DNA from: Glutamicibacter sp. JC586
GTDB taxonomy: Bacteria; Actinomycetota; Actinomycetes; Actinomycetales; Micrococcaceae
DNA length: 64,000 nucleotides
NCBI RefSeq assembly: GCF_009805585.1
Contig: NZ_VHIN01000002.1
Coordinates: forward strand, 496,001 to 560,000
Direction of reading: 5' to 3'
Shown: positions 13,735 through 59,698 of the stretch, piece after piece
How positions within the stretch are numbered: position 1 is the first letter of the stretch
How the letters are laid out: each line of letters opens with the position of its first letter
Notes under the pieces: generated by a model
Databases searched by the model: none
What the model was told of the DNA's origin: nothing
The model's input: the letters and a program-made list of their open reading frames with translations, nothing else
Translations under genes and position numbers: made by a program

Positions 13735-13881
13735 GCGTGAAGGCTCACTTCCGCTCGAGGATTTTGAATCAAAGGGGTCGGGGCCATAGTCGACCCAACA
13801 AACCAGTTTACGCTCTCGAGGCAAGTACTCCGGTGCTCTGTGTCAGAACATACAAGAATTTTCGGAAAAATCGCCAAAAAT

Positions 13882-27545: not shown

Positions 27546-28103
27546 CTACAGGTTGCTTCGATATGCTTGCCCCAGCCAGTCCATTAGTTCGTCATCCAGA
27601 TCATCGGCGATGTGTCGGCCGACCCTGGTCGTGACACTACTACCTAATCGGCTGCCCGGAGGTAACAACCGGGACGAGGTCGGGGCTTGTTCCCAGCGCA
27701 ACCCCAGATCCAACCGGTTCTTGGTCACTGGTGCGAGAACTGCGAACGTTCGACGCTGGGCTTGCAGCCCGGTGAAAGTCTTACGGGCCTGAACGACAAC
27801 ATCCCCAATGTCTGAAAGTCTGGACATCAGGGTGTCGTAAATTTCGCGCAGTTGCTGTCGATCAGCGAATTGCGTGTCGACGAGTTCCTGTGCTGTTTTG
27901 GTGAAAAAGTCGGGATACCCGAAGCACTCGTGCACCAAGAGCATCTGACTGTACCCGGTGACACCCTGCTCGTTACGGGGATCGATCTCAGCCACCCGGT
28001 CATTCCAGGTCTCCAGCTTCTGTCCCTTCTTACTTTCAAGCATCTCCATCTGCCACTGGCGCATTTCTTGCCAAGAGCGTGCTTGCTGATTGCCGGTTCC
28101 CAT
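27546..28103 (-). CDS. DUF5655-like protein
   Basis: 185 aa. The C-terminal half shows the DUF5655 pattern: IYDTLMSRLSDIGDVVVQARKTFTGLQAQRRTFAVLAP and KNRLDLGLRW. The N-terminal half resembles the helical DUF4287 type of extension (WQEMRQWQMEML, GVTGYSQMLLVHECFG). It lies 12 bp upstream of the RNA ligase-like gene on the same strand. Function unknown in the family. Confidence 0.65.
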   Translation of the reverse strand: MGTGNQQARSWQEMRQWQMEMLESKKGQKLETWNDRVAEIDPRNEQGVTGYSQMLLVHECFGYPDFFTKTAQELVDTQFADRQQLREIYDTLMSRLSDIGDVVVQARKTFTGLQAQRRTFAVLAPVTKNRLDLGLRWEQAPTSSRLLPPGSRLGSSVTTRVGRHIADDLDDELMDWLGQAYRSNL

Positions 28104-28152
28104 GGTGCGATGATAACAAGCAGTTGCTGACTTGTTTGACGCTCAATGAGGA

Positions 28153-29012
28153 GTAATCGACAGGGCAATACAAGAAGTTAATGGCGTAAGACTGGGCGTC
28201 GAAAGCTTTGGTGACCCATAGCATCCACTCATACTCAGTGTTGGTGGGACCACCATGCTTTCCTGGCCTGATCAGTTATGCGAAAAGTTGGCTGCATTCA
28301 ACAAACACGTTGTTCGCTACGATTTACGTGACTGTGGAGAATCAACGACCGTGAATCCGATGGACCCCCCTATAATCTGCGCGATCTGGCAAAAGACGCC
28401 GTGGCGCTGGCACGGAGTCTGGATGAACGTCCTGCGCATTTGGCCGGCATCGGTATCGGCGGCATGATCGCCCAAGTCGCGGCGTTGGATTTTCCTGACA
28501 GCTTCAGCACGTTGACCCTCTATGGGACGCGTCCAGTGGCACCTGGACCGGTGGATGATGATTTACCTGATCATGACCAGCAGATCATGCGAATACTGTT
28601 TTCTTCGGCTCTTCCTGACTGGACTGATCGTAAGGCTGTAGCTGAGCACGCCGCTGCGGGTGCGTTAGTCCTCGGCGATGATCCAGACCAAGCGCGAGAA
28701 CTTGCTGAACGCATGTGGGACCGCACGGCTGAAAACACGCCACCTGCCCATATGGCGAACCAAATGGGCATCGTCTTTTCTAAAATTGACTGTTCTCCAC
28801 GGTGGCGCGAACGCCTCGGTACGCTCAAGCAACCGACCCTTGTGGTTCACGGTGGTAAAGACCCTTTCTTCCCCGTAGGTAACGGCAAAGCTATAGCACG
28901 GGAAATCCCCGATGCGCAGCTACTTGTTTTGGAGAACGCATCGACGGCTATCCCTAGTGATCACACCGATCGCATTGCTGCAGCCATGATGGAACGAGAA
29001 ATTTCCGAGTGA
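28153..29012 (+). pseudogene. Broken alpha/beta hydrolase (RdmC/aclacinomycin methylesterase-like)
   Basis: Three readings join into one hydrolase. The N-terminal part (EVNGVRLGVESFGDP) ends at an in-frame TAG (28219-28221). It resumes as HPLILSVGGTTMLSWPDQLCEKL and RYDLRDCGES, and then shifts frame in a run of six C (28364-28369). The second half starts YNLRDLAKDAVALARSLDERP and runs to 29012. The nucleophile elbow reads G-I-G-I-G-G, with Gly where the catalytic Ser belongs. With a stop, a frameshift and a lost nucleophile, it is a decayed gene. The final His region (LENASTAIPSDHTD) is also altered. Confidence 0.85.
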
Positions 29013-29095
29013 TCAAACTCTAGACAACAGCCTCGGATTTGGGCATTGTTGGTCAAACTCAGACTTATTGCACGTGAACAATTTGGAGGAACCTC

Positions 29096-30244
29096 ATGGG
29101 CGAGGCCTACATCATCGACGCACTTCGAACTCCCGTAGGACGACGGGGAAAGTCTTTGGCCCAGCTCCATCCACTAGATCTTGCCACTGCGCCACTGGCT
29201 GAACTGGTGGAACGCAACAACATTGATTCCGAAGAATATGACGAGATCATTCTCGGATGCATCGATCAGCTAGGCCCACAATCCATGGATGTCGCGCGCA
29301 ATGCCTGGTTAGCTGCCGGATTATCGGACCACGTCCCGGGAACCACTATTGAACGCCAGTGCGGATCCGGACAGCAGGCCGTGTCCTATGCCGCCCAGGC
29401 GGTGATGAGCGGAACTAGTGATCTTGTAGTAGCCGGCGGTATTCAATCAATGTCCAGCATTCCGCTGTCCTATTCGAATAGTGCTGCCAAGGACTTCGGC
29501 TTCCCCGACCCCTACCAGGGATCCACGCGGTGGGCCGGCAGCTATGGGAATCAAGAAATTTCCCAATTTCGGGGCGCCGAAATGATGGCCCAGCGCTGGG
29601 AGCTTTCTCGCGAACAATTAGAGGACTTTGCCACGACGTCTCATGAGCGGGCCCTACATGCTCAAGCTCATGGCTATTTTGACCGCGAAATTATTGCTCT
29701 GGACGAGCTGGCCGTGGATGAGGGGCCCCGCACCGTCGACCGTTCCAAGATGTCTAGCCTTGCGCCCATCGTTGAGGGTGGACTACATACAGCGGCCACC
29801 GCGTCCCAAACGTCAGATGGTGCGGCCATGCTACTGGTCGCGTCCGAAGCTGCCGTAAAGCGCTATGGGTTAAAGCCTCGCGCGCGTATCCACCATGTCT
29901 CAGCCCGCGGTGATGATCCGATCATGATGCTCTCCGCGCCGATTCGCGCCACCAAGTTCGCGCTTGAACGATCCGGCATGTCATTGAAGGATATGGACCG
30001 GATTGAAATCAATGAGGCTTTCGCAGCTGTGGTGCTGGCGTGGCAGCGAGAACTGGGCGCAAACATGTCCAAGGTCAATGTCAACGGAGGAGCTATTGCA
30101 CTAGGTCATCCCATCGGGGCTACCGGTGCCCGGCTGATGACCTCGTTGCTCCACGAATTGGAACGCAGTGATACCCGTTGGGGATTGCAAACCATGTGTG
30201 AAGGCGGCGGTCAGGCCAACGTCACCATCATTGAACGACTCTAA
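29096..30244 (+). CDS. Acetyl-CoA acetyltransferase / thiolase
   Basis: 382 aa thiolase II family. The nucleophilic Cys is C89 in RQCGSGQQA, the His is in GGAIALGHPIGATGAR, and the second Cys is in MCEGGGQAN near residue 370; NEAF is also present. GGAGG lies 5 nt before the ATG. It is followed 29 bp later by an acyl-CoA dehydrogenase gene, so the two probably work in one beta-oxidation or related acyl-CoA route. Chain-length preference cannot be read from the sequence. Confidence 0.87.
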   Translation: MGEAYIIDALRTPVGRRGKSLAQLHPLDLATAPLAELVERNNIDSEEYDEIILGCIDQLGPQSMDVARNAWLAAGLSDHVPGTTIERQCGSGQQAVSYAAQAVMSGTSDLVVAGGIQSMSSIPLSYSNSAAKDFGFPDPYQGSTRWAGSYGNQEISQFRGAEMMAQRWELSREQLEDFATTSHERALHAQAHGYFDREIIALDELAVDEGPRTVDRSKMSSLAPIVEGGLHTAATASQTSDGAAMLLVASEAAVKRYGLKPRARIHHVSARGDDPIMMLSAPIRATKFALERSGMSLKDMDRIEINEAFAAVVLAWQRELGANMSKVNVNGGAIALGHPIGATGARLMTSLLHELERSDTRWGLQTMCEGGGQANVTIIERL

Positions 30245-30273
30245 GTTTACTGCGCCGGGACGAAGGATAACCG

Positions 30274-31470
30274 ATGAGTGATCCATGGGAACCCTACAGG
30301 CTAGAGACAGCTCTGGACATTGACTATCTTCAAGCCTTCTCCATGCTCACGCAGAAAGATCGTGAGCACTGGTTGCGTGCGCGGTCGTTGACCGCAGAGA
30401 TCCTTCCGGTAATCAATGAGCACTGGGAAAACGCGCGTTATCCCGTCGACTTGGTGCGACGGGTCGGCGAATTGGATTTGCTGACCGATGGGCTGACCAT
30501 TCCTGGCCATGAGGTTCTTTCACCACTAGCGGCCGGGCTGGTAGCCATGGAGATCTCACGAGCTGACGGATCCATAGCCGCAGCTGCGGCGGTCCAAGGC
30601 GGGTTGGTCTTACGGACCCTTAGCCTCTTCGCCAGCCAAGAACAACGAGATAAGTACCTTCAACCCGTTGCCAGTGGGCAGCTCTTGGGTGGTTTTGCCC
30701 TGACAGAACCGCACCATGGTTCAGATTCGGTAAGTCTGGAAACCAGCGCACAAAAGGATGGTCAATCTTGGATTCTGAACGGAAATAAGAAATGGATCGG
30801 TAACGGGGCTGCCGGAGGGATCACCCTTGTCTGGGCGCGCGATGTAGCAGACTGTGGAATCAAAGCGTTCATCGTTGATCAGCAAACTCCGGGATACGAA
30901 GCTTCGCCGGTGCGGGGTAAAGGAGTTCTGCGAGCTATCGAACAAGCCGAAATTCGGCTAAACAATGTACGGGTACCTGAGAGCGCTCGACTTCCTCATG
31001 TAAATAGCTTCAAAGATGTCTCCCGAGCATTGATTGCTACCAGGATTAATGTCGGCTGGTCTGCTTTGGGACATGCCCAGTTCCTCTTTGAAGCAGCACT
31101 GACCTATGCAAAAACTCGGGAACAGTTTGGCAAGCCACTGGGGGCACATCAAATGGTTCAGGAACGCCTGGCGCAAATGCTTGCCGAGCTAACCAATATG
31201 CAATTGCAATGTGTCGCGGTGGCATCTCAACAAGCTGCGGGAGCATTGAAAGACACTCAAGCTTCCCTGTTGAAGTATCACAACACTCGTGCAGCGAGGC
31301 GAATCGCTTCCACATCCAGGGACATGCTCGGCGGGAATGGCATCCTGCTGGAAAACCACGTGATCAGGCATGTTGGCGACATTGAGGCTTTGCATACCTA
31401 TGAAGGCACCGAATCCATTCAGGCACTCATTCTTGGTCGTGATCTCACTGGATTCAGTGCGTTTAGCTAA
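30274..31470 (+). CDS. Acyl-CoA dehydrogenase, glutaryl-CoA dehydrogenase-like
   Basis: 398 aa FAD enzyme. ALTEPHHGSD (flavin-binding loop), WILNGNKKWIGN and the catalytic Glu at about 377 in HTYEGTESIQ are present, and LILGRDLTG closes the protein. The TYEGT/LILGR combination resembles glutaryl-CoA dehydrogenases, but the Arg that binds the glutaryl carboxylate cannot be assigned with certainty. The gene is the second of a thiolase-dehydrogenase pair. Confidence 0.83.
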   Translation: MSDPWEPYRLETALDIDYLQAFSMLTQKDREHWLRARSLTAEILPVINEHWENARYPVDLVRRVGELDLLTDGLTIPGHEVLSPLAAGLVAMEISRADGSIAAAAAVQGGLVLRTLSLFASQEQRDKYLQPVASGQLLGGFALTEPHHGSDSVSLETSAQKDGQSWILNGNKKWIGNGAAGGITLVWARDVADCGIKAFIVDQQTPGYEASPVRGKGVLRAIEQAEIRLNNVRVPESARLPHVNSFKDVSRALIATRINVGWSALGHAQFLFEAALTYAKTREQFGKPLGAHQMVQERLAQMLAELTNMQLQCVAVASQQAAGALKDTQASLLKYHNTRAARRIASTSRDMLGGNGILLENHVIRHVGDIEALHTYEGTESIQALILGRDLTGFSAFS

Positions 31471-31535
31471 GACCGACAAAAGCATTACTATACGAATGAA
31501 TACTCACTTTTGCCGGGGAAGGCACAGATACAGGC

Positions 31536-32000
31536 ATGTCATATTTGGTTGATTTCAAAGACGTCTCCACCGACGGCTTGGAGACCTCTCCAGTTGCGCA
31601 GGCGCTGGCCGGGTTACGAGCCAATGAGGCTCGTTACCTGAAAAACAAGTTCGATCACGATCTTGTACTCGAAGATGCTGGAGCAGCCGCGGACGTCGTC
31701 GACTGGGTTCACAAGATCTTGGTTGAAGAGCGAGAACTTCGCATTGATTCCCGCCCCTTGCAGGCCTGTGTTTTTGAAGCCGATGGCGCTAAGAGAGCTT
31801 ACGTTTTCTATGAGTCCGGGCTATCCATCAACGTCTTGTACGGCATTGATGAAGGCGAGAAACGAGCTGTCGGTTTTAAGTTGTCCGACGGTATGGAGGT
31901 TCCTGTTGAGCTTGCGGATAAGTTCAAGTTTGCGCGACAGAAATCTAAGCTCGCCGGAACGATTCGTGGCTCCTACTTCGTAATCAAGAACGAGTACTAA
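31536..32000 (+). CDS. Hypothetical protein
   Basis: 154 aa, soluble, acidic at the N-terminus (VDFKDVSTDGLETSP) with alternating helix and strand pattern, ending in a basic beta segment (GTIRGSYFVIKNEY). No known motif, signal or membrane helix. It has a plausible start (ATG 31536) and normal codon use. It lies just left of the IS3 insertion and its stop overlaps the small convergent gene. Confidence 0.6.
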   Translation: MSYLVDFKDVSTDGLETSPVAQALAGLRANEARYLKNKFDHDLVLEDAGAAADVVDWVHKILVEERELRIDSRPLQACVFEADGAKRAYVFYESGLSINVLYGIDEGEKRAVGFKLSDGMEVPVELADKFKFARQKSKLAGTIRGSYFVIKNEY

Positions 32001-32185
32001 TCCCCCAGCTGCCCGAAACCATCTTGGGCTGCTTCTTTCAGAAAATCCTCGGGCCACATCTCCCAGAGTCTGGGTGGGAACACGATCTGATCTATCGGGG
32101 TTTGCTGTTGGTGCGCGATTTGGATCTCGCGTGCCAACAGTTCAAAGTATGTCTGCTGCCTGACAATGAACTCGGAAATTTTCAA
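31997..32185 (-). CDS. Small hypothetical protein next to the IS3 end
   Basis: 62 aa from a TTG at 32185: polar and helical (ISEFIVRQQTYFELLAREIQIAHQQQ) with an aromatic C-terminal half (FPPRLWEMWPEDFL). The IS3 element ends 6 bp upstream at 32191. On the far side of the element the same frame continues for about 35 codons in reading phase (40151 onward on the minus strand), so the insertion removed the native upstream region or interrupted a longer gene. Not recognised. Confidence 0.4.
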   Translation of the reverse strand: MKISEFIVRQQTYFELLAREIQIAHQQQTPIDQIVFPPRLWEMWPEDFLKEAAQDGFGQLGD

Positions 32186-32186
32186 G

Positions 32187-32190
32187 TCAA
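32187..32190. repeat. Target site duplication of the IS3 element, left copy
   Basis: TCAA, repeated at 40151-40154 immediately outside the opposite end. Confidence 0.6.
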
Positions 32191-32206
32191 GTGAGACCAA
32201 CGGGTG

Positions 32207-32437
32207 CTAAACAGCGGTCACTTCTTCACGCTCCTCCAGCTTCATTGGCTCGTTGATCCACGCCGCTTCAGGCACCTGCAGCTTCTTCGGCAGGCTACGC
32301 TGACCGAACCGTTCAGGATGCGCGCCCCACGCAGCCTGCAGCGCGGCAAGCCGTTGGTCCTCAACATGCCCGGTCATCCCGAAATGCACGTCCGCCGGCG
32401 TATGGAAGCCGATCTCCGAATGCCGGTGATGCCCGTT
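32207..32437 (-). pseudogene. C-terminal part of IS3 OrfB transposase
   Basis: This is the 3' exon-like fragment of the disrupted OrfB. It reads HRHSEIGFHTPADVHFG and then VEDQRLAALQAAWGAHPERFG, the usual end of IS3-family transposases, to a TAG at 32207. It joins in frame to the fragment ending at 38837: removing the transposon and one TGCCCGTT gives C-N-G-H-H-R-H-S-E, the expected sequence. Confidence 0.88.
32430..32437. repeat. 8-bp target duplication of the transposon, left copy
   Basis: TGCCCGTT; the second copy is at 38837-38844. Confidence 0.9.
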
Positions 32438-32461
32438 TGTGAATCGCGGAGTTAAATGTCG
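32438..32461. repeat. Left terminal inverted repeat of the transposon
   Basis: Starts TGTGAATCGCGGAG and ends TAAATGTCG. Against the right repeat there are three mismatches, all in the centre. Confidence 0.9.
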
Positions 32462-32484
32462 CTCTTTTCTCGGTCTACGATGAC

Positions 32485-32514
32485 GACCTCAGCAAATAAG
32501 TATTTGCTGAGGTC
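32485..32514 (-). terminator. Terminator of the metal-resistance operon
   Basis: A perfect 14-bp stem (32485-32498 with 32501-32514), 2-nt centre, 20 bp after the DsbA stop on the minus strand. Modest T content follows. Confidence 0.75.
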
Positions 32515-32533
32515 GCGGCATCATCAGTAGGAC

Positions 32534-33223
32534 TTACTTCGAGATCGCTGATTTGATCGCGGTCTCGAACTGCTCGGCAGTTTGAATTGGCAGTGGTTGA
32601 CCATCGAGGAAGAACGTTGGGGTGCCGGTGATTCCTAGAGCTTGCCCATCGGTGAGATCCTGAGAAACGCGTTGTTGAGTTTTGGGGTTGGCGATGGCTG
32701 CGTCGTAGGCCTTCATATCTAATCCCAACTCTTTGGCATAGTCACGGAATAGTTCGCTGTAGTCATCTTGCGATTCACCCCATTGTTTTTGGGTGTCAAA
32801 CATTTTTTGATACATCTGCTCGTACTTCTCCTGTTGCGCCGCAGCCTCGACAGCGACAGCAGCGTTCATTGAGTTACGGTGACCTGGAAGTGGGAAGTAG
32901 CGCTGAACGAAGGTGACGTTCTGCCCGTATTCTTTCCTCAGTTCTTCAACGAAGGGATATATGGAGCCACAAGCTTCGCACTCAAAGTCCAGGAACTCCA
33001 CCAGGACCGCTTTCTCTTCTGGAGCCTTGGACAATACGTGGCTGTTAGGGCGGACGACTTGACCTTGAGCTGCTTCTGGCCCCGGTGCGGCGGCGAGGCC
33101 GGTTTTATTTTGGGCGGAATTCTTGGCGATCAAGATTCCGGTCAGTGTTCCAAGTATCAGGACGGTAATCACGATCCAGGCGATCGTTGTAGATTTGGTT
33201 CGTTTCCGTACGGTGGTATTCAC
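32534..33223 (-). CDS. Membrane-anchored DsbA-family thiol-disulfide oxidoreductase
   Basis: 229 aa. One N-terminal membrane helix (about 13-33) anchors an extracytoplasmic thioredoxin-fold domain with the active site C82-E-A-C85 in FLDFECEACGS and the cis-Pro loop GITGTPTFF. It should oxidise or isomerise disulfides outside the membrane. It is the distal gene of the cmtR-ATPase unit, 188 bp after the ATPase. Carriage next to a metal pump suggests protection of exported protein thiols from metal ions, which is an inference. Confidence 0.85.
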   Translation of the reverse strand: MNTTVRKRTKSTTIAWIVITVLILGTLTGILIAKNSAQNKTGLAAAPGPEAAQGQVVRPNSHVLSKAPEEKAVLVEFLDFECEACGSIYPFVEELRKEYGQNVTFVQRYFPLPGHRNSMNAAVAVEAAAQQEKYEQMYQKMFDTQKQWGESQDDYSELFRDYAKELGLDMKAYDAAIANPKTQQRVSQDLTDGQALGITGTPTFFLDGQPLPIQTAEQFETAIKSAISK

Positions 33224-33411
33224 TACGCAACTTCCTTTGGTGGTTCAGCTCAAACTTATTGACGACTCAACCGTGAGAATCAGCCTTCGGAGTCGTTCTT
33301 CTTTCTTCGAAGCCGATACGGGCGAGGGTGTTCAGGACTTCCTTGTAGCGGGATAAACTACTCTTTGATGCTGGCCATCTTTTTCCGTACTGCTCCAGCG
33401 GAAGTACGCAT

Positions 33412-35340
33412 TTACTGGCTGTCACCGGTGCGTTTAGCCCGTGCAGCACGCAACCCATTGCCAATCACCACGACTTCAGCAACCTCATGAACCAACACCA
33501 CAGCGGCTAACCCGAGGGTCCCGGTGATCGCCAGCGGCAAAAGCACTGCAATGATCGCCAAGGACAGGACGATGTTCTGGTTCATGATGTTGCGCCCGCG
33601 CCGCGCATGAGCCAACGCTTGCGGGATGAGCCTGAGGTCGTGGCCAGTGAAGGCCACCTCGGCGGACTCTATCGCTGCATCCGATCCGCTAGCGCCCATC
33701 GCGATGCCTACGGTTGCGGTAGCGAGGGCGGGCGCGTCATTGATGCCATCGCCGATCATTCCCGTGGGGCGGCGCTTGACCGATTCAGCGATCAATGTGG
33801 CCTTATCTTCAGGTCGCAGCTGCGCATGCACTTCGGTAATCCCGGCCAGCGCCGCCAATGCCTGGGCAGTGCGCTGGTTATCGCCGGTCAGCATGGCCAC
33901 GTCCACACCCTGAGCTTGGAGCTGCCCGATGGCTTCCTTCGCTTCGGGGCGCAGTTCATCGCGAACACTAATAGCACCGATGATGCGGGAATTGCGGGTC
34001 ACCAGGACACACGTCTGCCCCTGGTTCTCCATGGATTCCACTGCCTGAACCAGTGGCCCAGGGGTGATCCACCGGGGGCTGCCCACAGCGATTTCCGCGC
34101 CATCGACCCACCCCTTCACCCCATGGCCTGGTTCCTCGGTAACGTTCAATGCCGGAGGGATGTTGGTTGCGGCGTAGCTGATGGCCCGCGCGAGAGGATG
34201 CGTGCTGTGCTCTTCCAAGGCTGCGGCCAGGGACAGCACTTCCGCCTTCGAGACGTCGCCTATTGTGTGTACGGAGGCGACTGTTGGTTCATTGCGCGTG
34301 AGCGTTCCGGTTTTATCCACGGCCACGCGGCGCAGCGTGCCGAGTTGTTCGAAAGCGGCTCCGCTCTTAATGATGACCCCGAATTTGCTAGCCGCACCAA
34401 TCGCTGAAACAACCGTCACAGGCACCGCAATGGCCAAGGCGCAGGGAGACGCGGCGACAAGTACGACCAACGCGCGGGTGATCCATGTTTCCGGATCGCC
34501 GAAAATTGAGCCGAGGACACCAACTAGGACGGCAAGAATCATAACCCCTGGGACGAGTGGCCGGGCGATGCGGTCCGCCAGACGGGCCCGTTGACCACGA
34601 TCATTCTGGGCCTGCTCGACCAGGGAAACTAAGGTTGTCAACGAGTTGTCAGACCCTGCCGCCGTGGCGGTCACTTCCAACGCGCTGGAGGTGTTGATGG
34701 CTCCTGCCGCCACTTGATCACCCGTGGTGACTGCCACAGGTATTGATTCACCGGTGATGGCCGAAGTATCAAGGCTACTGCTGCCGGCGGACACCACGCC
34801 GTCGGTGGCAATCCGCTCACCGGGACGCACCCGAAGGATATCGCCAGCACGGATTTCGTTGGCAGATACTTCTACCGCTTGCTGATTGCGAAGGACCGTA
34901 GCTGTATCCGGAACAAGCTTCAGTAACGCGCGCAGCCCGGTGCGGGCTCGGTCCATGGCTTTGTCTTCCAAAGCTTCGGCGATGGAGTACAGGAATGCCA
35001 ACGCAGCGGCTTCCTCCACGTAGCCAAGGATTACCGCTCCGGTAGCGCTGATAGTCATCAGTAGCGCAATGCCCAGCTTGCCCTGGGTGAAAAGCCTTCG
35101 AATTGCTCTTGGAACAAAAGTCGAAGCACCCAGCAACAGGCCAACCCAGAACAAGACGAGCGCGACTGCATGCGCGCTGCTTGCATTCGCACTGCTCCAC
35201 TCAGTAATCAACCCCACAAGGAAAAAGGCCCCGGAGCCTAAGGGGATGAGAAGTGCTGGATCACGCCACCAGGGACGTTCGATCTCATTCTCTTCAACGT
35301 CTGTCGAAGTGGTCGCTTCGCAGCCGCATGCTGAACTCAT
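33412..35340 (-). CDS. P1B-type heavy-metal efflux ATPase, CtpG-like
   Basis: 642 aa. P-type motifs: TGES (196-199), the phosphorylated Asp D342 in DKTGTLT, HP in STHPLARA, and the hinge TGDNQRTA...GDGINDAPALA. The membrane metal motif is S-P-C (298-300) instead of the CPC of Cd/Zn/Cu pumps, and helix 8 reads VHEVAEVVVIGNG. SPC occurs in P1B-4 ATPases and in mycobacterial CtpG, which also partners CmtR. The N-terminus is short, with CGC (residues 5-7) and no HMA domain. The ATG overlaps the repressor stop (ATGA). Likely role: Cd, Pb, Zn or Co export. Confidence 0.88.
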   Translation of the reverse strand: MSSACGCEATTSTDVEENEIERPWWRDPALLIPLGSGAFFLVGLITEWSSANASSAHAVALVLFWVGLLLGASTFVPRAIRRLFTQGKLGIALLMTISATGAVILGYVEEAAALAFLYSIAEALEDKAMDRARTGLRALLKLVPDTATVLRNQQAVEVSANEIRAGDILRVRPGERIATDGVVSAGSSSLDTSAITGESIPVAVTTGDQVAAGAINTSSALEVTATAAGSDNSLTTLVSLVEQAQNDRGQRARLADRIARPLVPGVMILAVLVGVLGSIFGDPETWITRALVVLVAASPCALAIAVPVTVVSAIGAASKFGVIIKSGAAFEQLGTLRRVAVDKTGTLTRNEPTVASVHTIGDVSKAEVLSLAAALEEHSTHPLARAISYAATNIPPALNVTEEPGHGVKGWVDGAEIAVGSPRWITPGPLVQAVESMENQGQTCVLVTRNSRIIGAISVRDELRPEAKEAIGQLQAQGVDVAMLTGDNQRTAQALAALAGITEVHAQLRPEDKATLIAESVKRRPTGMIGDGINDAPALATATVGIAMGASGSDAAIESAEVAFTGHDLRLIPQALAHARRGRNIMNQNIVLSLAIIAVLLPLAITGTLGLAAVVLVHEVAEVVVIGNGLRAARAKRTGDSQ

Positions 35341-35705
35341 GATGCATTCTCCGTGGTGGAAGTGGCGCAGCACCCAGGCACAGTGCAGGTGGAGTCGATG
35401 CAGGGTACCTGTTTGTCCACAGCCAAAGTCACGTTCACCAGAGCCAGTAGCGCTGCACTTAGATGGGGATCGGCGATCTTATATCGGGTTTTGCGACCTT
35501 CTGGTTCAGGGACGATAATGCCGCATCCACGCAGGCAGGTCAGGTGGTTAGAAACGTTGGTGCGTGAAATCCCAAGATCACTAGCCAGCTCGGCTGGATA
35601 CCCCGGGGCGTTGAGCAGGGACAGGAGAATTTTGGAGCGGGTGGGATCGGCCATGGCTCGGCCCAGCCGGTTCATCACGTCGATCCGCGTATCAATGGTC
35701 ATCAT
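35337..35705 (-). CDS. cmtR: CmtR-type Cd(II)/Pb(II)-sensing ArsR/SmtB repressor
   Basis: 122 aa winged helix repressor. It carries Cys at 57, 61 and 102, exactly the numbers of the Cd/Pb ligands known in Mycobacterium tuberculosis CmtR; the pair lies in the DNA-recognition helix (NHLTCLRGCG). Metal binding would release it from its operator. Additional C107, C112 and C113 near the C-terminus could add ligands. It is the first gene of its operon and overlaps the ATPase start by 4 bp, so it probably represses itself and the pump. Confidence 0.9.
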   Translation of the reverse strand: MMTIDTRIDVMNRLGRAMADPTRSKILLSLLNAPGYPAELASDLGISRTNVSNHLTCLRGCGIIVPEPEGRKTRYKIADPHLSAALLALVNVTLAVDKQVPCIDSTCTVPGCCATSTTENAS

Positions 35706-35745
35706 GTAGTGAACTATACAGCAATCGATGAACTATTGATCGTGT
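35706..35745 (-). promoter_or_regulatory. cmtR promoter with repeated ATAGTTCA boxes
   Basis: On the minus strand TATAGT (35713-35718) lies 7 nt before the cmtR ATG, so the mRNA may be leaderless. The 8-mer ATAGTTCA occurs at 35710-35717, over the -10 box, and again at 35729-35736, 19 bp upstream. Two sites on nearly the same helix face are a plausible repressor-binding arrangement. Confidence 0.45.
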
Positions 35746-35760
35746 ATCACCAATGAACGT

Positions 35761-35813
35761 TTACGAGACAGCTTCAATGAGTGAGGGTGAATCCGGCATG
35801 TCGTGTCTCGTAA
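35761..35813. promoter_or_regulatory. Long-spaced inverted repeat upstream of the resolvase, candidate res site
   Basis: TTACGAGACA (35761-35770) is repeated inverted as TGTCTCGTAA (35804-35813). It lies between cmtR and the resolvase gene, where Tn552/Tn3-type res sites are found. Only sequence symmetry and position support it. Confidence 0.4.
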
Positions 35814-35870
35814 CCCGTGTCCGCAAACTATGTAACATCAGCACCGTTTGATTTACACTGAAGCAGGGCT

Positions 35871-36431
35871 TTGATTGGATACGCCCGCGTGAGCACGAAC
35901 GATCAGAACCCTGCGAGCCAGGTCGACGCGCTGAAAGCAGCGAACTGCGTCAAGATTTTCACCGAGCACGCGTCCGGAACCCTCGCAACCCGGCCTGCGT
36001 TGACCGAGGCGCTGAACTACTTGCGTGACGGAGATACCCTCGTCGTGACCGAACTCGACCGCTTAGGCCGATCGGTGCGGCACCTCAAACACATTGCTGA
36101 GGATTTACAGCAGCGCGGCATCGGACTCAAAGCCCTCTCGCAAGGAATCGACACCACCACCCCAGGCGGCCGGCTGTTCTTTCACGTGCTGGCAGCCATT
36201 GCCGAGTTCGAGCATGACCTGATCGTGGAACGAACCAAAGACGGACTGGAAGCAGCCCGCGCTCGACGTCGTAAGGGCGGGCCACGCTTCAAGATGACAC
36301 CAACGAAGATTCAGCAGGCCCGCTCCATGTATGACCAGGGCGAACATACTGTTCAGGAAATTGCCGATACTTTCGGCGTGTCCCGCCCTACTATTTATCG
36401 TCATCTCGCGCTTCAAGTCGAACAGGTCTAG
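35871..36431 (+). CDS. Serine recombinase (resolvase) of the transposon
   Basis: 186 aa. The catalytic Ser is S8 in GYARVSTNDQ, followed by the family segments TELDRLGRS, TPGGRLFFHVLAAIAEFEHDLIVERT and a C-terminal HTH (YDQGEHTVQEIADTFGVSRPTIYRHL). It resolves transposition cointegrates at a res site. The start appears to be TTG at 35871, since the family begins with MIGYARVS. Complete and probably active. Confidence 0.88.
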   Translation: MIGYARVSTNDQNPASQVDALKAANCVKIFTEHASGTLATRPALTEALNYLRDGDTLVVTELDRLGRSVRHLKHIAEDLQQRGIGLKALSQGIDTTTPGGRLFFHVLAAIAEFEHDLIVERTKDGLEAARARRRKGGPRFKMTPTKIQQARSMYDQGEHTVQEIADTFGVSRPTIYRHLALQVEQV

Positions 36432-36440
36432 TGCGGTGAC

Positions 36441-37887
36441 ATGATGGTACAGCTCACCTCGCAGCAGAAGATCGAACTGCTCCACCAACATGCAGATGGT
36501 GTTCCGTGGGCTCGTTTGTCGAGGCACAGCGCGGTGAGCGTGAGAACGCTGCAGCGGTGGGAAAAGCAAGGTGCCGCAGGCTCTCTGAGCAGAAAGCCTC
36601 GACGGGATTAGGGAACGCTGAGAACCGACCGTGATCTAGTACAGATCATCGAGGCTTTGTGTTTACGTACCCCTGCCCCCAGCTATGCCTATATCCATCG
36701 GCGGATCTCTGACATTGCCTTTGATCGAGGACTTCACGCTCCTGGGTACACCACTATCCGTTCTGTCGCTCGCAACATCGATCCTGGGCTACTTGCACTC
36801 GCCGCAGGCGGAAACCGCGAATACCGAGACAAGTTTGAACTTGTTTACCGACGCACCACCCAGGCTCCTAACGAACAATGGCAAATGGATCACACACTAC
36901 TTGATGTGATGATCCTCGACGAGCAACAACGCCCCATCCGCCCATGGCTCAGCATCGTCCTCGATGATTACTCGCGCGCCATAGTGGGTTACTCCCTTAA
37001 TGCTAAAGCGCCGAGTGCGCAACAATCAGCCCTTGCCCTGCATCATGCGATCAGCCGAAAAGACAATCCTTTGTGGCCGATTTACGGCCTGCCAAATGTC
37101 CTCTATACCGATCACGGGACCGACTTCACCTCCTCCCGAATTGATGAATTGTGTTTGGCTTTGCACATCCAGCTGATTCATTCATGAGTCGCGGTACCGC
37201 AGGGGCGCGGCAAAATCGAACGCTTCTATCGAACAATTACCACCAAGCTCTCGCCTCACCTGCCTGGCTACATACCGCACGGAACCAGCGGACAACCCAT
37301 CAACCAACCAACTTTCATTGAATTTGCGCCAGCTCGACGCAATCATGGAGCGGTTCATCGTTCACGAGTACAACGAAAGACCACACTCCTCAACGGGCGA
37401 CGCTCCTCACACCCGGTGGAAGGCTCAGGGATTTATCCCGCGCACCACAGAACATCCCGAAGATATCGACCTGCTATTGCTCACGGCGACTGCTCATCGA
37501 AGAGTACAGCGAGACGGCATCCGGTTCGCCTCAACCCGGTATATCTCGCCGGTACTGGCCGCCTATGTGGGTGAAGAAGTCACAGTGCGATACGACCCGA
37601 GAGATCTTGGGGAAATCCGCCTGTACTTCAACAACGAATTCCTTTGCCGTGCTATTGCTCCCGAGCGTGCGTCAATGGCCGTTACTTTCGAGGAACTGCG
37701 GCAGGCAAGGAACCACCAGCGTCGCTCCTTGAAACGACAATTGAAACAGTACGAAGAAATCCGTCAAACGATTCCCCAGGATCCGCGCTATCGTCCCGAG
37801 GAATCACCGACGACATCGCCTGAAGATCCGACACCAGGTCCTTCCTCGCAACGTCATGGATTAAAAACTTATGCCTCCGACGAATGA
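36441..37887 (+). pseudogene. DDE transposase (TniA/Tn552 TnpA type), inactivated
   Basis: The product can be traced through three lesions. N-terminal HTH (codons 1-56, TSQQKIELLHQHADGVPWARLSR) ends at TAG 36609-36611. The catalytic core follows, with the first Asp in QWQMDHTLLD and the second in LYTDHGTDFTS, to a TGA at 37185-37187. The same frame then gives GRGKIERFYR with the Glu, and a frameshift near 37305-37317 leads into LNLRQLDAIMERFIVHEYNERPHSS and the C-terminal beta domain to 37887. All catalytic residues survive, so the damage is recent. Confidence 0.88.
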
Positions 37888-38797
37888 AAGTCCCAACCGG
37901 CCTCGTCACTCACTGTTGACTCCGGGAGATGACGGGCGACGTTTCCTCAACGGCCATTTCGACGAGTTCACTAATGCAGCGTCGCCCGTGGCCAGGAATA
38001 GACCAAGATTTGTCAGTACCCGCGAGCATCGCCGCTTTGTTGAGTTCGCGGATACAGTCCGGGCTCATCGATATATCGGGCTGTGTTATGGCGCTCCGGG
38101 AATCGGCAAGACACTCTCAGCTCGCAACTATGCCGGTACTGATGACTGGAAACTTTGGTTTCCATTAGCTGGGGAGGATGGGCCACTTCCAGCAGTTCCA
38201 GAACGCGCACTGGAGAGCCGAACCGCGTTCTTCACGCCTACCGTAGCCGCAACAATCAAGCAAATTGATCTTGGTCTACCGCGTGCTTGCCAACAAATTT
38301 CCTGGGGTGTTGAGTATGCAACGTACAGCCATGTTGACCCACTGGTTCACACCGATTCTCAGCACAGCGGTCACACGGAATTGCTGATTATTGATGAAAC
38401 CGACCGTCTCAAAGCAACAGGACTCGAACAAGTTCGAGACTTCTATGATCGGCATGCCATGGGAGTCATTCTGATAGGTATGCCTGGAATTGAGAAGCGA
38501 CTGGCACGCTACCCGCAACTCTATAGTCGCATCGGATTCTCCCATGAATACCGGCCTCTTCAACCAGGCGAGGTATCAGCGGTATTGGCCGGATATTTCC
38601 CAAATCCAGATCCACATGGCGACAGTATTGCTCATGCTGCCGCGCTGGCGTCTATCCTGCGAGTGACTAACGGAAACTTCCGCCTCCTTGACCGGATAAC
38701 GACACAGATCAAAAGAATAATGAACATCAATCATCAAGAGCAATTGAATCCTGAAGTGGTGGATGCGGCGCAACAATCTCTTCTCATAGGTCATTAA
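37871..38797 (+). CDS. AAA ATPase transposition protein (TniB/TnpB type)
   Basis: 308 aa. Walker A GAPGIGKT (74-81) and Walker B LLIIDETD (about 173-180) identify the AAA ATPase that selects targets and activates the DDE transposase in Tn552, Tn5053 and Mu. The C-terminal part (IGFSHEYRPLQPGEVSAVL, GNFRLLDRITTQIKRI) is the usual winged region. It overlaps the transposase 3' end by 17 bp. It looks intact, unlike its partner. Confidence 0.88.
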   Translation: MPPTNESPNRPRHSLLTPGDDGRRFLNGHFDEFTNAASPVARNRPRFVSTREHRRFVEFADTVRAHRYIGLCYGAPGIGKTLSARNYAGTDDWKLWFPLAGEDGPLPAVPERALESRTAFFTPTVAATIKQIDLGLPRACQQISWGVEYATYSHVDPLVHTDSQHSGHTELLIIDETDRLKATGLEQVRDFYDRHAMGVILIGMPGIEKRLARYPQLYSRIGFSHEYRPLQPGEVSAVLAGYFPNPDPHGDSIAHAAALASILRVTNGNFRLLDRITTQIKRIMNINHQEQLNPEVVDAAQQSLLIGH

Positions 38798-38812
38798 GCG
38801 CCGCGAGATTTA

Positions 38813-38836
38813 CGACATTTATCGCTGCGATTCACA
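38813..38836. repeat. Right terminal inverted repeat of the transposon
   Basis: Inverse of the left repeat, ending CTGCGATTCACA. It starts 16 bp after the tnpB stop codon. Confidence 0.9.
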
Positions 38837-38844
38837 TGCCCGTT
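38837..38844. repeat. 8-bp target duplication of the transposon, right copy
   Basis: TGCCCGTT, identical to 32430-32437. Confidence 0.9.
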
Positions 38845-39636
38845 GCACGCCTGAACAAACCGGTCCATAAAATCCCGGGCATCAGCCAGCGAACCGAACC
38901 GCTCCGGAAACACCGGAAGATACTTTAAGGTCTTGAACCAAGCCTCTAAATAGGGATTATCATTGCTGACCTTCGGCTGCGAATGCGACTTCAGCACATC
39001 CAAGTCCGCCAGCAATGCAGCGACCGGCTTCGAGGTCATCGAGGTCCCACGATCGGCATGAACTACCTTGGGGATCTGGTTGGTGGCGAACACCCGCGCC
39101 ATGAACTCCCTAGCCAGCTCACCGGATTCTCGGGCATGGACCTGACAACCGACAATATAGCGCGAGTAAATATCGATCATCACGTAGGCATCTAAATAGG
39201 TGCCCTTGGCTGGGCCAGCCGATTTCGTGATGTCCCACGTGAACGCCTCACCTGGCTGGTACGCGACCAGTTCCGGGACTTTCCGGCTTGGTGGCGGGCC
39301 TGCTGGCGGCGTTCGGCCACTTGCTTCTCAGGGCGCAGCAGCCGATACATGGTGGACACCGAGCACAAATACGTGCCCTCAGACAAGAGGACCGCGTAGA
39401 TCTGTTCGGGTGCCTGATCGATGAACCGCTCGCTGTTCAAGGTTGCCAGGATCAGAGCTTCTTCGCTCGTGGTGAGCTTGTTCGCCGGTGCTGGACGCGG
39501 CGCTGCAACAACCGGCTGTGGTGCTCGCGTAGCTTGCTGGTGGCGCTGCATCATGGCCCGGTTGTCCCCTGCCAGCGTGCTGGCCCACCGCGTGGAAACG
39601 TCGCTGTCGATCAGCTACTGGTAGGCATCAGCAAGT
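38837..39636 (-). pseudogene. N-terminal and catalytic part of IS3 OrfB transposase
   Basis: The reading shows a TAG at 39615-39617 (YQ then LIDSDVSTRWAS), the segment LTTSEEALILATLNSERFIDQ and YRLLRPEKQVAERRQQ, then a one-base loss near 39284 that shifts into PELVAYQPGEAFTWDITKSAG. The DDE residues are D in TWDITK, D in HADRGTS and E in NPYLEAWF, with the last pair 35 residues apart. The frame is then cut by the transposon. It was already damaged apart from the insertion. Confidence 0.85.
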
Positions 39637-39649
39637 ATGTCTTGTGCTG

Positions 39650-40030
39650 CTATTTGGAATCCGCGCTCTTTGAGATTTGTTCCAAGAGCGCATGTGCTTT
39701 TCCCATGATGTCCAAGGCGGTCTGCGTGGTGGCGGGCTGCTGCTCGCTGGCTACGAGCTGCTTTTTCAACCGGGCGATTTCGGCTTGTTCCTTGCTCAGC
39801 TTCCCGCCACCCTTGGTGCTGTTGGCGGGGTTGTTTCCGTCGAGCATTCCCGCATCGCGGAGCCTGCGCCACTCGACGATCTGCGAAGAATATAGTCCGT
39901 TGGCGCGCAGGTAGCCGCGGCTCTGCCCGCTTTGGATCGCGTTTTCGTAGCCTTGCAGGTGAGCGAGTTTCTGGGCCGGGATGAAGGTACGGCGTCGTGG
40001 CTGGTGCGGGCGGGGCTAGGTGGAATCCAT
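39650..40030 (-). pseudogene. IS3 OrfA, N-terminal stop
   Basis: From ATG 40030 the frame reads MDST and meets TAG at codon 5, then continues PRPHQPRRRTFIPAQKLAHL and GYENAIQSGQSRGYLRANGL, an IS3-family OrfA HTH, followed by a coiled coil (KLSKEQAEIARLKKQLVASE). Total 127 codons. Expression would need an internal start. It should overlap orfB through programmed frameshifting in an active copy. Confidence 0.78.
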
Positions 40031-40150
40031 GGTCCCATTCTCCGGCATGGAGCTGGCCAGTGGGTGGATGAAGGCGATGCTCATGGTGGTGATTAGTCCT
40101 GTTCTCGCCCTGTCAGAGTAGGGTAACTGGCTATGGATCGGTGGTCTCAC

Positions 40151-40154
40151 TCAA
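40151..40154. repeat. Target site duplication of the IS3 element, right copy
   Basis: TCAA, identical to 32187-32190. Confidence 0.6.
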
Positions 40155-40378
40155 GCCTGACAGACAGGGATCCGCCGGGGTATCTGCGCAGAGTTTCTGC
40201 TCCTATGCACAACTTGGGTACGAGCTCCTGGCAGGCACCGTAGACCGATCTGTATCAATCTAACCGGTGCAAGACGTAGGTTAGTGCGCGCGTCTTGACT
40301 TTAGCGATGTACTGCTTGGGCATGCTTTTCATTCTCTGGATAGAAAGCGTCATGAGACCCGGGATGCTTCTATGTTTG

Positions 40379-41443
40379 TCAAGTAACCGATAGAGGCGGG
40401 TTTGTGGTCAGGACCCGATGGATTTGCCTGGTGATGTAGCGCTTGAGACTCCGCATGATTTCGCGTTTGCTTCGTCCTTCGGCGATCTTGCGTTGGACAT
40501 ATTCTCGGGTGGCTTTGTCGGTGCGCATTCGTGTCAACGCGATGGTGTTGATAGCCCGGTTCAGTCGCCGGTCACCACCGCGGTTGAGCCGGTGCCGGAC
40601 CGTGTTTCCCGAGGACGCCGGGATCGGGCAGGTGCCCGCGATCATCGCGAATGCAGATTCGGATCGGATGCGTCCCGGGTGTGACCAGACGGCCATAATG
40701 ATCGCAGCGGTCACCGCTCCCACTCCGTGCATGTCCAGCAGTGACGGCACATGTTCAGTGGTCAGTTTGGTGAGCTGGACCTGGTTGGCCTTCAAGTCGC
40801 CATCCAGGCCAGTGATCTGCTTGGCCAGGCGCACGGCCTCGCCGCGGGCAACAGTGGCACCGAGGGCCTCATCGCGTGTGCGCCATGCCGCGATGGTCTT
40901 GATTTGGGATGCGGTCAACGGTTTGCGCGCATCAAGGCCCAGGTCGTGGGCGCGTACCAGTGCTGTCAGGGCATTGATGGCACGTAGCCGATCGGCGTTC
41001 ATCTGCTCACGTCCAACGCTGAGCAGTTTCAGGGCGGTCTGAACCTCGCCCGCCCGGCGGTCCCGCAGCTTGTCCAAGTCCATGACGAGAGTCGATCTGG
41101 CAGCCGTGATCGCGTCCAAGGTATCGGTTTTGCCTTTGCCCCGCAGGCGTTTGGTTGAAGGCGTGGGGGCTTCAACTACGCGATAGCCGACCTGCGCAAA
41201 ACGGTCGGACATCACGGCCCCGTAGGAGCCGGTGCACTCGGCCGAGATGAGGGCACTCTCGATGTCACCTTCGGTGCGGCGCCCAATCCAGGCTGCCGCG
41301 CGTTCCAAGCCGGCGCTCGTGGTTGGAAAGGTTTCCTGCGCCCGAAGTTTGCCCGAGGGCGACTCCAAGATCGCATAGGTATGAGTTGCGGCGTGTGTAT
41401 CCACGCCGATGACGAATCGATAGTGATCTGCCACAATTGACAT
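40379..41443 (-). CDS. IS110-family transposase
   Basis: 354 aa. The N-terminal RuvC-like DEDD domain shows D15 (IGVDTHAATH), E69 (SAECTGSYG), D107 and D110 (KGKTDTLDAITAAR). A coiled-coil linker and the C-terminal Tnp20 domain follow (LDMHGVGAVTAAIIMAVW, PASSGNTVRHRLNRGGDRRLNRAI), with a candidate catalytic Ser in PASSG. AGGAGA lies 7 nt before the ATG at 41443; the 71-residue upstream frame extension runs through the non-coding part and is not protein. The gene is uninterrupted and may be active. Confidence 0.9.
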   Translation of the reverse strand: MSIVADHYRFVIGVDTHAATHTYAILESPSGKLRAQETFPTTSAGLERAAAWIGRRTEGDIESALISAECTGSYGAVMSDRFAQVGYRVVEAPTPSTKRLRGKGKTDTLDAITAARSTLVMDLDKLRDRRAGEVQTALKLLSVGREQMNADRLRAINALTALVRAHDLGLDARKPLTASQIKTIAAWRTRDEALGATVARGEAVRLAKQITGLDGDLKANQVQLTKLTTEHVPSLLDMHGVGAVTAAIIMAVWSHPGRIRSESAFAMIAGTCPIPASSGNTVRHRLNRGGDRRLNRAINTIALTRMRTDKATREYVQRKIAEGRSKREIMRSLKRYITRQIHRVLTTNPPLSVT

Positions 41444-41690
41444 GCGATGTCTCCTTCTAACGTGCGGACGTCGTGACCGGCGTCGGCCCGGGAGAAGATC
41501 ACTACGAGGCATGCCTGTAAGGGGCCACAATCCCCAGGGATTGGGCAGGCTTCTAATCAAGCCATCGCGATGGGCCGGGGCGGCGCCGGCCCTTCCAACC
41601 AAGTGGACAGATCCCGGGAATGACACCCCGCAGGGGTCAGACGATTCATGAGTCACACCTGGTCGGAGGAACCAGTACCACTCTGCCAGC
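41444..41690 (-). ncRNA. IS110 5' non-coding region, candidate bridge RNA
   Basis: About 250 bases upstream of the transposase are rich in hairpins on the minus strand: CAATCCCTGGGGATTG (about 41528-41543), GACCCCTGCGGGG, and GGCCGGCGCC within a GGGCC / GGCCC stem. IS110 elements of this orientation encode a bridge RNA here that pairs with donor and target DNA. No exact ends or loop-target pairing could be assigned. Confidence 0.4.
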
Positions 41691-41861
41691 TAGCCCCAGG
41701 CCAGCCACTACCAACACTTACAGACGATTTAGGGTCCCGCACCAGGCGGCTGAGGAGATGAGCTTGTCCGGATTCGCCATCCGGTCCCCTGTCGAACACT
41801 CCAAGGAAGCACCGGGTTATCACGAATTTGGCTGTAGCTCAAGGTTCCAACCACGATAACT

Positions 41862-42202
41862 GAGAGGTTTGTGGAAGAGGAGTGCTCAGGGCGGTATTAC
41901 AGCCAAGGCTCCGAAGCGTTCAACGGAGACCTGCACTTCTACTCCGTTGACCACGACCTGCGCGGGAAGATCGGAGAAATCGACACTGACCGGTGTGCTG
42001 TCGTACTTATGACCGGGGGTACGACTACCTCACCACTCCCGAAAATGGGGCCAGGACTGCCAGTGAGATCCGCAATGCGGAATTCATAGAGATGAAGGAA
42101 ATCGGTCATTTTCCAATGAGCGAGAACTACCCCGTGTTTGGGTCATATCTCATGCAGGCCCTTGAAATCGTGAAGCAAAAGAAGGCCGTGATCAAAGGCT
42201 GA
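41862..42202 (+). pseudogene. C-terminal remnant of an alpha/beta hydrolase
   Basis: Two frames join at a run of five G (about 42009-42013). The first gives YYSQGSEAFNGDLHFYSVDHD and CAVVLMTG; the second continues YDYLTTPENGARTASEIRNA and EIGHFPMSENYPVFGSYLMQ, where D (TGxYD) and H (GHFPMSE) match the acid and base of hydrolases. The nucleophile half is missing; the IS110 element lies upstream, so it may have truncated the gene. One missing base in the G run explains the frame change. Confidence 0.78.
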
Positions 42203-57853: not shown

Positions 57854-57862
57854 TCAAGCCTG
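57836..57862 (-). terminator. Hairpin at the 3' end of the nhaA-dsbA gene
   Basis: CAGGCTTGATG (57836-57846) pairs with CATCAAGCCTG (57852-57862). The stop codon (57854-57856) lies inside the stem. There is no T run. Confidence 0.6.
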
Positions 57863-59698
57863 GCTCTCCTTGGTGCGTGCCCCGCGACGGCTGGATTCCA
57901 ATGTCGCGGTCAATGTGCGTGCATCATAGCTTCCCGTCAGCCGGCAACCGTCAACGAAAAACGTCGGGGTCGCATGGGCCCCACTTGCCGTTGCGCTTGC
58001 CATATCCCGCTCGACCCTCGCGGCAACTTCAGCGCTGTCCAGGTCCCTAATGAACGCCTCGACATCGAGACCGAGCTCAGCCGCATAACCGATAAGATCC
58101 TCGCGTTCGAGAGCATGCTGACGAGCGAAGACGAAATCAAGCCAAGGCCAGAACATGTCCTGCTTCGCAGCCGCTTCTGCTGCCCGTGCCGCAAGCGGGC
58201 CGTGAGGATGATGAGGAAGATGCCTCACGACATAGCGCAAATCGTCTCCGAAACGCTTGTGCAGATCCTCCCACGAACCGGTGGCATGCGCACAGTACGA
58301 ACACTCGAAGTCCACGAACTCCACCAAGGTGAGCTGGGCGTCCTCGGAGCCGCGGATATGGTCCACCTCGGGATCCACTGGAGAGTCAAGTGTCATCGGC
58401 AGATCCGCGGTCTCTTCTCCCCACCGACGGGCCGCGACCTTGAAGATCGTCCAGCCCAGAACGGTGGCGAGCGCCATCGCCACAAGGACACCCACAGTCG
58501 CCTGACGCCCAAGATCTGAGGAGGCATCGAAAGCAAGGCCAATGATCAGCAACGACATGGTAAAACCGATCCCAGAAAGAGCTGCCCCGCCAAACACGCT
58601 ACCCATACCGACTCCCTCCGGAAGTCGGCCTGCACCCATCCGAACAGCGAGGAACGTCGCGATCCCGACTCCGAGGAACTTGCCCAGCACGAGCCCCGCG
58701 ATAACACCCCACGTCACCGACGAGCCGAGGGCTTCGGCCATCACGCCACCGCGCAGGTCAACCCCGGCATTTGCCAAGGCGAAGATTGGCACGACCACCA
58801 ACGCCGTGGGTAAGCGAAGATACTCGTGCAACCGCTCATTGACTGACACGCCCTTAGACAACCCCCGTCCCACAGCACGCGCCGAGGCAGCGCTAGGAGA
58901 CTGCCAAAAGTCGCGAAACAGCTGACGAGCGGCGACCACTTTATGCCGCCGTGTCGGGTAAGCCGGGACGAGAAGCCCAGCAATCATGCCCGCCAACGAA
59001 GCATGGATGCCAGAAGACAGCGTCGCTAGCCACAGCACAATGACTATCCCTACGTACGGGGCGGCGCTCCACTGCCGAGAACGATCCAGTAGCCACAATG
59101 CAAAAAGACAGCCTAGAGCAATCAGCAGCGGGACGAGCCGAATCTCATCGCTATAGAACACACCAATGATGGACACCGCAAGGAAATCATCGACCACCGT
59201 AAGGGTCAAAAGGAAAACGCGTAACTGCCCTGAAAGTCTAGGGCCAACGATCGCAAAAGCCCCGAGCATGAACGCCGTATCCGTGCCGACAACCGCTCCC
59301 CAACCCTGGAGCCCGTCGCCACCGGAGGAGCCCACGACTAGAACATACACCACCGCGGGTACCGCAACACCTGAAATGCCCGCGATCGCAGCCAGACGAG
59401 CGCGACTGCTATCCCGCAGGGCCCCATGTGCAAATTCCTGGCGCACCTCGAGACCCACGACAAAGAAAAACACGACCATCAGTCCGTCGTTAATCCAGTG
59501 GTGTAGATCCAGGTGCAGTCCAAACGGGCCGACGTCGATGCCCATGCTCTGGCGCCACAGGTCGAAGTATGAAGAGGACAACGGCGAATTCGCCCAGATG
59601 AGGGCGATGGACGTGACGACGATGAGAAGCACGGCCGAGCCAGACTCCGTGCGCAGTCTTCCGGCTATGCCGCGCGGGGGCGAGGTTGATTGTGACAC
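57854..59698 (-). CDS. nhaA: Na+/H+ antiporter NhaA fused to a DsbA-like thioredoxin domain
   Basis: 614 aa. Residues 1-400 are NhaA with about 11 helices; the family segments INDGLMVVFFFVVGLEVRQEF, GTDTAFMLGAFAIVGPRL and the Asp pair LTVVDDFLAVSII (ion-binding) are visible. Residues 440-614 are a thioredoxin fold of the DsbA type with active site C466-S-Y-C469 and cis-Pro HATPTFF. The fusion is known in actinobacteria. GTG start at 59698; a TAGTTA/CATAGT box ends 6 nt upstream. The domain's side of the membrane depends on the number of helices. Confidence 0.88.
   Translation of the reverse strand: MSQSTSPPRGIAGRLRTESGSAVLLIVVTSIALIWANSPLSSSYFDLWRQSMGIDVGPFGLHLDLHHWINDGLMVVFFFVVGLEVRQEFAHGALRDSSRARLAAIAGISGVAVPAVVYVLVVGSSGGDGLQGWGAVVGTDTAFMLGAFAIVGPRLSGQLRVFLLTLTVVDDFLAVSIIGVFYSDEIRLVPLLIALGCLFALWLLDRSRQWSAAPYVGIVIVLWLATLSSGIHASLAGMIAGLLVPAYPTRRHKVVAARQLFRDFWQSPSAASARAVGRGLSKGVSVNERLHEYLRLPTALVVVPIFALANAGVDLRGGVMAEALGSSVTWGVIAGLVLGKFLGVGIATFLAVRMGAGRLPEGVGMGSVFGGAALSGIGFTMSLLIIGLAFDASSDLGRQATVGVLVAMALATVLGWTIFKVAARRWGEETADLPMTLDSPVDPEVDHIRGSEDAQLTLVEFVDFECSYCAHATGSWEDLHKRFGDDLRYVVRHLPHHPHGPLAARAAEAAAKQDMFWPWLDFVFARQHALEREDLIGYAAELGLDVEAFIRDLDSAEVAARVERDMASATASGAHATPTFFVDGCRLTGSYDARTLTATLESSRRGARTKESQA

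Follow-up and report, generated by a model that had tools for sequence, protein, structure and literature searches.

Two groups of transposons, the Tn552 type and the Tn5053/Tn402 family (TniABQR), combine a transposase with an ATPase and a serine resolvase. Staphylococcal Tn552, with p480, p271 and the bin resolvase, is described in passages of PMC3276174 as generating 6-bp repeats, with 10-bp repeats in some plasmids, and as having res sites as insertion hotspots. Tn5053 elements also hunt res sites but are characterized by 5-bp repeats and by TniQ in the relevant parts of PMC7765201, and 5-bp repeats are likewise given for Tn7 and related elements in a passage of PMC11406308. Here, a 64,000-nucleotide stretch of Glutamicibacter sp. 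JC586 (the window; contig NZ_VHIN01000002.1, positions 496,001 to 560,000) is considered, in which a 6.4-kb unit with predicted metal-related cargo lies within an IS3-family element, between two copies of an 8-bp sequence. It can be stated with high confidence that the unit belongs to the Tn552 family of transposons, has as cargo a putative cadmium efflux pump under CmtR control and a DsbA-like protein, and inserted into orfB of the IS3 element. Its 8-bp footprint is ordinary for the Tn552 family, being the commonest outcome among those relatives that have a repeat.

Ends of the unit and empty sites in IS3

The first bases of the unit are TGTGAATCGCGG and the other end is their near complement; overall, the termini TGTGAATCGC.../...GCGATTCACA pair at 21 of 24 positions, and TGCCCGTT stands on both sides. 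The reading of an earlier note on this DNA, in which a metal transposon with ends at 32438 and 38836 is nested in an IS3 element, is upheld by these paired ends, by the duplication, and by a cargo that includes CmtR and a cadmium-type P-type ATPase. Within the 3.52-Mb host genome the unit is found as a single copy, the sole other match being the unit's own hairpin on the opposite strand.

The earlier note had proposed searching for the same IS3 element without the insert, and six such uninterrupted copies are available. The comparison at the junction covers seven other IS3 copies (two more near-full-length copies, in G023 and G191, and shorter matches fall outside it); six of the seven have one 8-base site with no insert. 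This site is exactly TGCCCGTT in three copies (L003, L087 and L091), TGGCCGTT in L088, and TGACCGTT in L089 and L090; in L087 the sequences flanking it are 96% and 94% identical to those of the window. The seventh copy (L035), which resides in the same genome and is 75-77% identical, differs at the junction. L003 is located on a plasmid of Arthrobacter sp. YC-RL1 (NZ_CP013298.1), the sole plasmid match to the region, where the IS3 element has 89.6% DNA identity, the same boundaries and a single TGCCCGTT, but is uninterrupted. The natural empty sites in other IS3 copies support the proposed order, with the IS3 element first and the transposon second; the 8-bp repeat is a true target duplication, found on both sides of the unit and once in the empty sites. 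The predicted peptide reading across both flanks (C-N-G-H-H-R-H-S-E) also stands, but an intact orfB is not restored on removal of the unit, as there is a frame change near 39284, visible as a gap of one base when the DNA is aligned and as a frame switch in tblastn, where the query, an annotated frame, reads through stops.

The orfB of the host element is rve-type, and the IS3 ends are sharply conserved, although not where they had been placed. Among eight copies, including that of the window, conservation extends past the proposed ends by 17-18 bp on the left and 19 bp on the right, and then drops. Outside GTGAGACC on the left, columns 1 and 3-17 agree in all eight copies, column 2 in six and column 18 in seven; outside GGTCTCAC on the right, 16 of 19 columns agree in all eight and the rest in seven, five and seven, with at most six of eight in the columns tallied beyond. 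TCAA, which had been read as the IS3 target duplication, is exact in six of the eight copies on the left and seven on the right, and is rejected as a duplication since it lies inside this conserved sequence. Members of the IS3 family generate target duplications of 3-5 bp. At the revised ends no duplication is seen in the window copy, and 3-bp repeats are present in two of the eight copies (ATC in L089 and CCA in L091). No chromosomal empty site of the IS3 element was encountered: in the six relatives compared, similarity to the left flank stops at 32035-32058, and nothing downstream matches up to 48000. The corrected ends apply to an IS3 element that is found in several genomes of the genus. 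Adjoining its right end in the window is an IS110-family transposase gene (40382-41656, minus strand), so that three kinds of mobile element occur within about 9.5 kb.

Family placement and the length of the target duplication

The unit is assigned to the Tn552 family because its gene order and ATPase similarity match those of a blaZ-bearing Staphylococcus epidermidis unit (L173), which we take to be Tn552. In both, the order is cargo, resolvase, transposase and ATPase; the ATPase of the window is 37% identical to its counterpart over 87% of the query, and AAA_22 is the best match of both proteins. The cargo differs, being a beta-lactamase there and metal-related here, and the inverted repeats of about 120 bp given for Tn552 in parts of PMC3276174 compare with matched ends of 24 bp in the window. 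The survey script described below returned no end pair for the S. epidermidis unit, which has no clear repeat at its ends and lends no support to any claim on repeat length.

Another account would place the unit in the Tn5053/Tn402 family and treat its 8-bp duplication as aberrant: the broad kinds of genes are the same (a transposase with rve and Mu-C domains, an ATPase and a serine resolvase), and Tn5053 elements are also described as res-site hunters in parts of PMC7765201. This account is rendered highly improbable by the ATPase, which scores 64.1 bits on AAA_22 and 12.1 bits on the Pfam TniB model, below its cut-off of 22.4, by repeats of 6-9 bp among the relatives instead of the 5 bp of Tn5053, and by a Pfam search of 18 proteins or protein fragments from the unit (all but four overlapping open reading frames of less than 80 amino acids), which gave no TniQ match. 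A search for TniQ in the whole genome also gave no match, but is uninformative as control genomes gave none either. Membership in the Tn5053 family is therefore rejected and, judged from its predicted proteins, the window element has Tn552 and not Tn5053 as its nearer relative.

The survey of relatives comprised 111 stretches selected by visual inspection among the longer matches to the ATPase (same family, same order and named records), leaving aside short or weak matches and phylum-wide hits. For each ATPase copy the best TGTG.../...CACA pair with at least 16 of 24 positions paired was taken as the end pair regardless of any repeat; as this choice is blind to the repeat, some repeat-less pairs may have wrong left ends. 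End pairs were obtained for 66 of 119 ATPase copies, and 53 gave none. The longest exact flanking repeat among the 66 was 0 bp in 31, 2 bp in two and 3 bp in one; it was 6 bp in five, 7 bp in four, 8 bp in 13 and 9 bp in ten, and repeats of 4 or 5 bp did not occur. One locus (L120) was counted on both strands, hence the 32 repeat-bearing elements represent 31 distinct ones. Repeats of 6-9 bp span ATPase identities from 38% to 71% and include an element on an alphaproteobacterial plasmid (L171, 8 bp). When flanks were swapped between elements as a control for chance, a 6-bp repeat arose in 3 of 4,286 pairings and one of at least 7 bp never. The view that 8 bp is atypical is thus contradicted by the relatives with a repeat, which show 6-9 bp and most often 8. 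Elements without a repeat (L125, L134, L079 and others, about half of those with end pairs) possibly reflect resolvase-mediated deletion or inversion, or a wrong left end. Among open-licence PMC papers, no title or abstract was found to deal with duplications of 8 bp made by Tn552 relatives of actinobacteria; an apparently odd footprint is common in a branch of transposons for which little literature was found.

Among the named relatives, the Arsenicicoccus piscis element (L038) has ends of this kind, flanked by the 8-bp duplication GCTCCGCC. Its ATPase is 71% identical and its cargo also includes CmtR, but a CadD-like transporter (below the curated cut-off) takes the place of the P-type ATPase, and other passengers are present. 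CmtR recurs with a CadD-like transporter, again below the curated cut-off, in L055, so this cargo theme is not confined to one element. The relative on Paenarthrobacter plasmid pYJND-1 (L170) has an ATPase 65% identical and a resolvase 78% identical to those of the window, with other passenger genes. In L120 (G474:C3:562400-580200), two ATPase copies of opposite orientation lie in a stretch of 10.1 kb that is bounded by a 6-bp repeat; two Tn552-type elements apparently form a composite here. One further locus (H51), sought as a Tn5053-like positive control for the survey script, looks like a Mu-like prophage and was not used.

By analogy with Tn552 and Tn5053, the DDE transposase and the AAA ATPase would join both ends of the unit to the target by a staggered cut; repair of an 8-base stagger in the IS3 orfB would give TGCCCGTT twice, and the serine resolvase would resolve the cointegrate. 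The transposase gene has decayed since the insertion. A quite different origin, in which the 8-bp repeat and the inverted ends arose by chance or in assembly and the unit was brought in by homologous recombination or within a larger element, could draw on the draft state of the assembly (26 contigs) and on the broken transposase gene, owing to which the window copy is not self-mobile now. It is nevertheless exceedingly improbable given the six other IS3 copies, of seven compared, that hold the 8-base site once (three of them with TGCCCGTT itself), the swapped-flank control with nothing longer than 6 bp, and the kind of ends shared with relatives.

Several points weigh against the reading of the unit as a Tn552-family metal transposon that duplicated 8 bp of its target. 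No copy above 71% ATPase identity was seen among the relatives searched, and it is on relatives only that the ends of the window unit were tested. The cadmium pump and metal resistance are putative functions assigned from protein families, and the stagger, the cointegrate and its resolution are likewise presumed from better-known elements. Of the 119 ATPase copies surveyed, 32 carry the result on repeat length: among the 66 elements with end pairs, 34 lack a repeat or have 2-3 bp, and the other 53 copies have no end pair. Finally, the Tn552 derivative Tn552-II is reported, in a passage of PMC12486829, to form a circle in which a 7-bp spacer separates the ends, and to have a 7-bp target site at one end and another 7-bp sequence at the other, which is neither the assumed cointegrate route nor a simple duplication.

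Variation of the stagger and choice of target

The spacing of the cut apparently varies per insertion instead of being fixed per element. L124 and L127, with repeats of 6 and 7 bp, share 99.1% identity over 4,170 bp, and L142 (9 bp) is 99.1% identical to both L143 and L082 (8 bp each), which are themselves 99.9% identical. Transposase identity within these two sets is 98.0-99.8%; only these rows of the transposase comparison were used, as several other pairs had wrong or no frames. More generally, where two ATPases are at least 97% identical (12 pairs), repeat length differs in 10 pairs and is shared in two. A length fixed per clade (8 bp in the group of the window element and 9 bp in the group at 63-65%) would agree with the repeat-bearing elements at 70-100% ATPase identity, which have 8, 8 and 8 bp, and with those at 63-65%, which have 9, 9, 9 and 9 bp. 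Nearest relatives also differ slightly less than shuffled ones (0.84 versus 1.08), yet 484 of 5,000 shuffles were as low, so they are not clearly more alike. With lengths that differ at 99.1% identity and in most of the closest ATPase pairs, a clade-fixed length is unlikely, though some clade effect is possible.

The target sites of the relatives offer a second theme. Res sites lie just upstream of resolvase genes. Of the 66 elements with end pairs, 19 have a serine-recombinase gene that points outward and begins less than 200 bp from one end, the distance being 66-125 bp in 18 cases; ten of the 19 belong to the 32 elements with a repeat and nine to the 34 without. The rate expected from the density of such genes in the same loci is about 0.008 per element, or about 0.5 in 66, and is over-estimated as it includes the hits themselves. 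In one further case, L082, a recombinase gene less than 200 bp away points towards the element. Part of the relatives would thus sit where res sites are expected, which fits the preference for res sites given for Tn552 (PMC3276174) and Tn5053 (PMC7765201). The window copy landed at an ordinary site and not beside a recombinase gene, none being found outside the unit in 28001-42000, which sets it apart from Tn552 with its preference for res sites. On pYJND-1, two Tn552-type transposition modules are arranged in tandem (L170, 9627-15473), and the distance between an end that bears a 6-bp repeat and the resolvase start of the other module is 82 bp.

The odds appear even for a reading that joins the two themes: in actinobacterial Tn552-type elements the same transposase and ATPase would set a new cut spacing (6-9 bp) every time they insert, in contrast to the constant 5 bp described for Tn7 and Tn5053, and the elements would find res sites without TniQ, such that the ATPase or the transposase itself might sense resolvase-bound DNA. 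The data set of the survey allows two points to be tested, namely how res sites are found without TniQ and why the stagger of Tn7/Tn5053-type transposases is rigid while that of the Tn552-type branch seems not to be.

Features of the unit and other observations in the window

Coordinates of the unit, its predicted genes and the host IS3 element (positions in the window)
Feature	Position	Strand	Remarks
Tn552-type transposon	32438..38836	+	6,399 bp
Left target duplication TGCCCGTT	32430..32437	+	
Right target duplication TGCCCGTT	38837..38844	+	
Left terminal inverted repeat	32438..32461	+	88% complementary to 38813-38836
Right terminal inverted repeat	38813..38836	+	
Hairpin 3′ of the DsbA-like gene	32484..32515	-	perfect 15-bp stem; possibly terminator-like, without T run
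DsbA-like thioredoxin-fold protein (cargo)	32534..33223	-	Thioredoxin_4 8.9e-23, DSBA 5.3e-17
Predicted cadmium-type heavy-metal P-type ATPase (cargo)	33412..35340	-	TIGR01512, 495.6 bits, cut-off 313.5
Predicted CmtR Cd/Pb-sensing ArsR-family regulator (cargo)	35337..35705	-	NF047906, 161 bits, cut-off 150
Candidate part of the unit's own res site	35761..35813	.	inverted repeat TTACGAGACA/TGTCTCGTAA, perfect over 10 bp, 5′ of the resolvase gene
Serine resolvase, open frame	35871..36431	+	78% identical over 181 amino acids to that of the Paenarthrobacter relative (L170)
DDE transposase gene (rve + Mu-transpos_C), broken	36441..37887	+	two in-frame stops and a frame change
AAA ATPase (p271/TniB-like), open frame	37871..38797	+	AAA_22 best Pfam match
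IS3-family element, interrupted	32173..40169	.	ends from conservation in 8 copies; left edge ±1 bp
Larger IS3 part (orfA and most of orfB)	38845..40169	-	own frame change near 39284

The resolvase, rve, Mu-transpos_C and AAA_22 domains of the unit all lie in one direction (plus strand). The defects of the transposase gene consist of TAG at 36609-36611, TGA at 37185-37187 and the frame change at about 37310-37315. Aligned with the open frame of the pYJND-1 relative, the gene matches in two pieces of 60% and 56% identity, and its Pfam domains are still recognizable (rve, 7.4e-12, in the piece 36621-37187; Mu-transpos_C, 2.6e-21, in the piece 37318-37887). Any further movement of the window copy probably depends on transposase from another element. 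The 61 nucleotides around the hairpin fold at -31 kcal/mol (z -7.69).

Elsewhere in the window, two overlapping antisense open frames, each of more than 660 codons, occupy 11740-13731 (plus strand) and 11827-13824 (minus strand); the search for Pfam domains covered the plus-strand frame alone and gave no match at E ≤ 1e-3. At 57857-59698 (minus strand), a single open frame encodes an NhaA-type Na+/H+ antiporter followed by a C-terminal DsbA-like thioredoxin domain.

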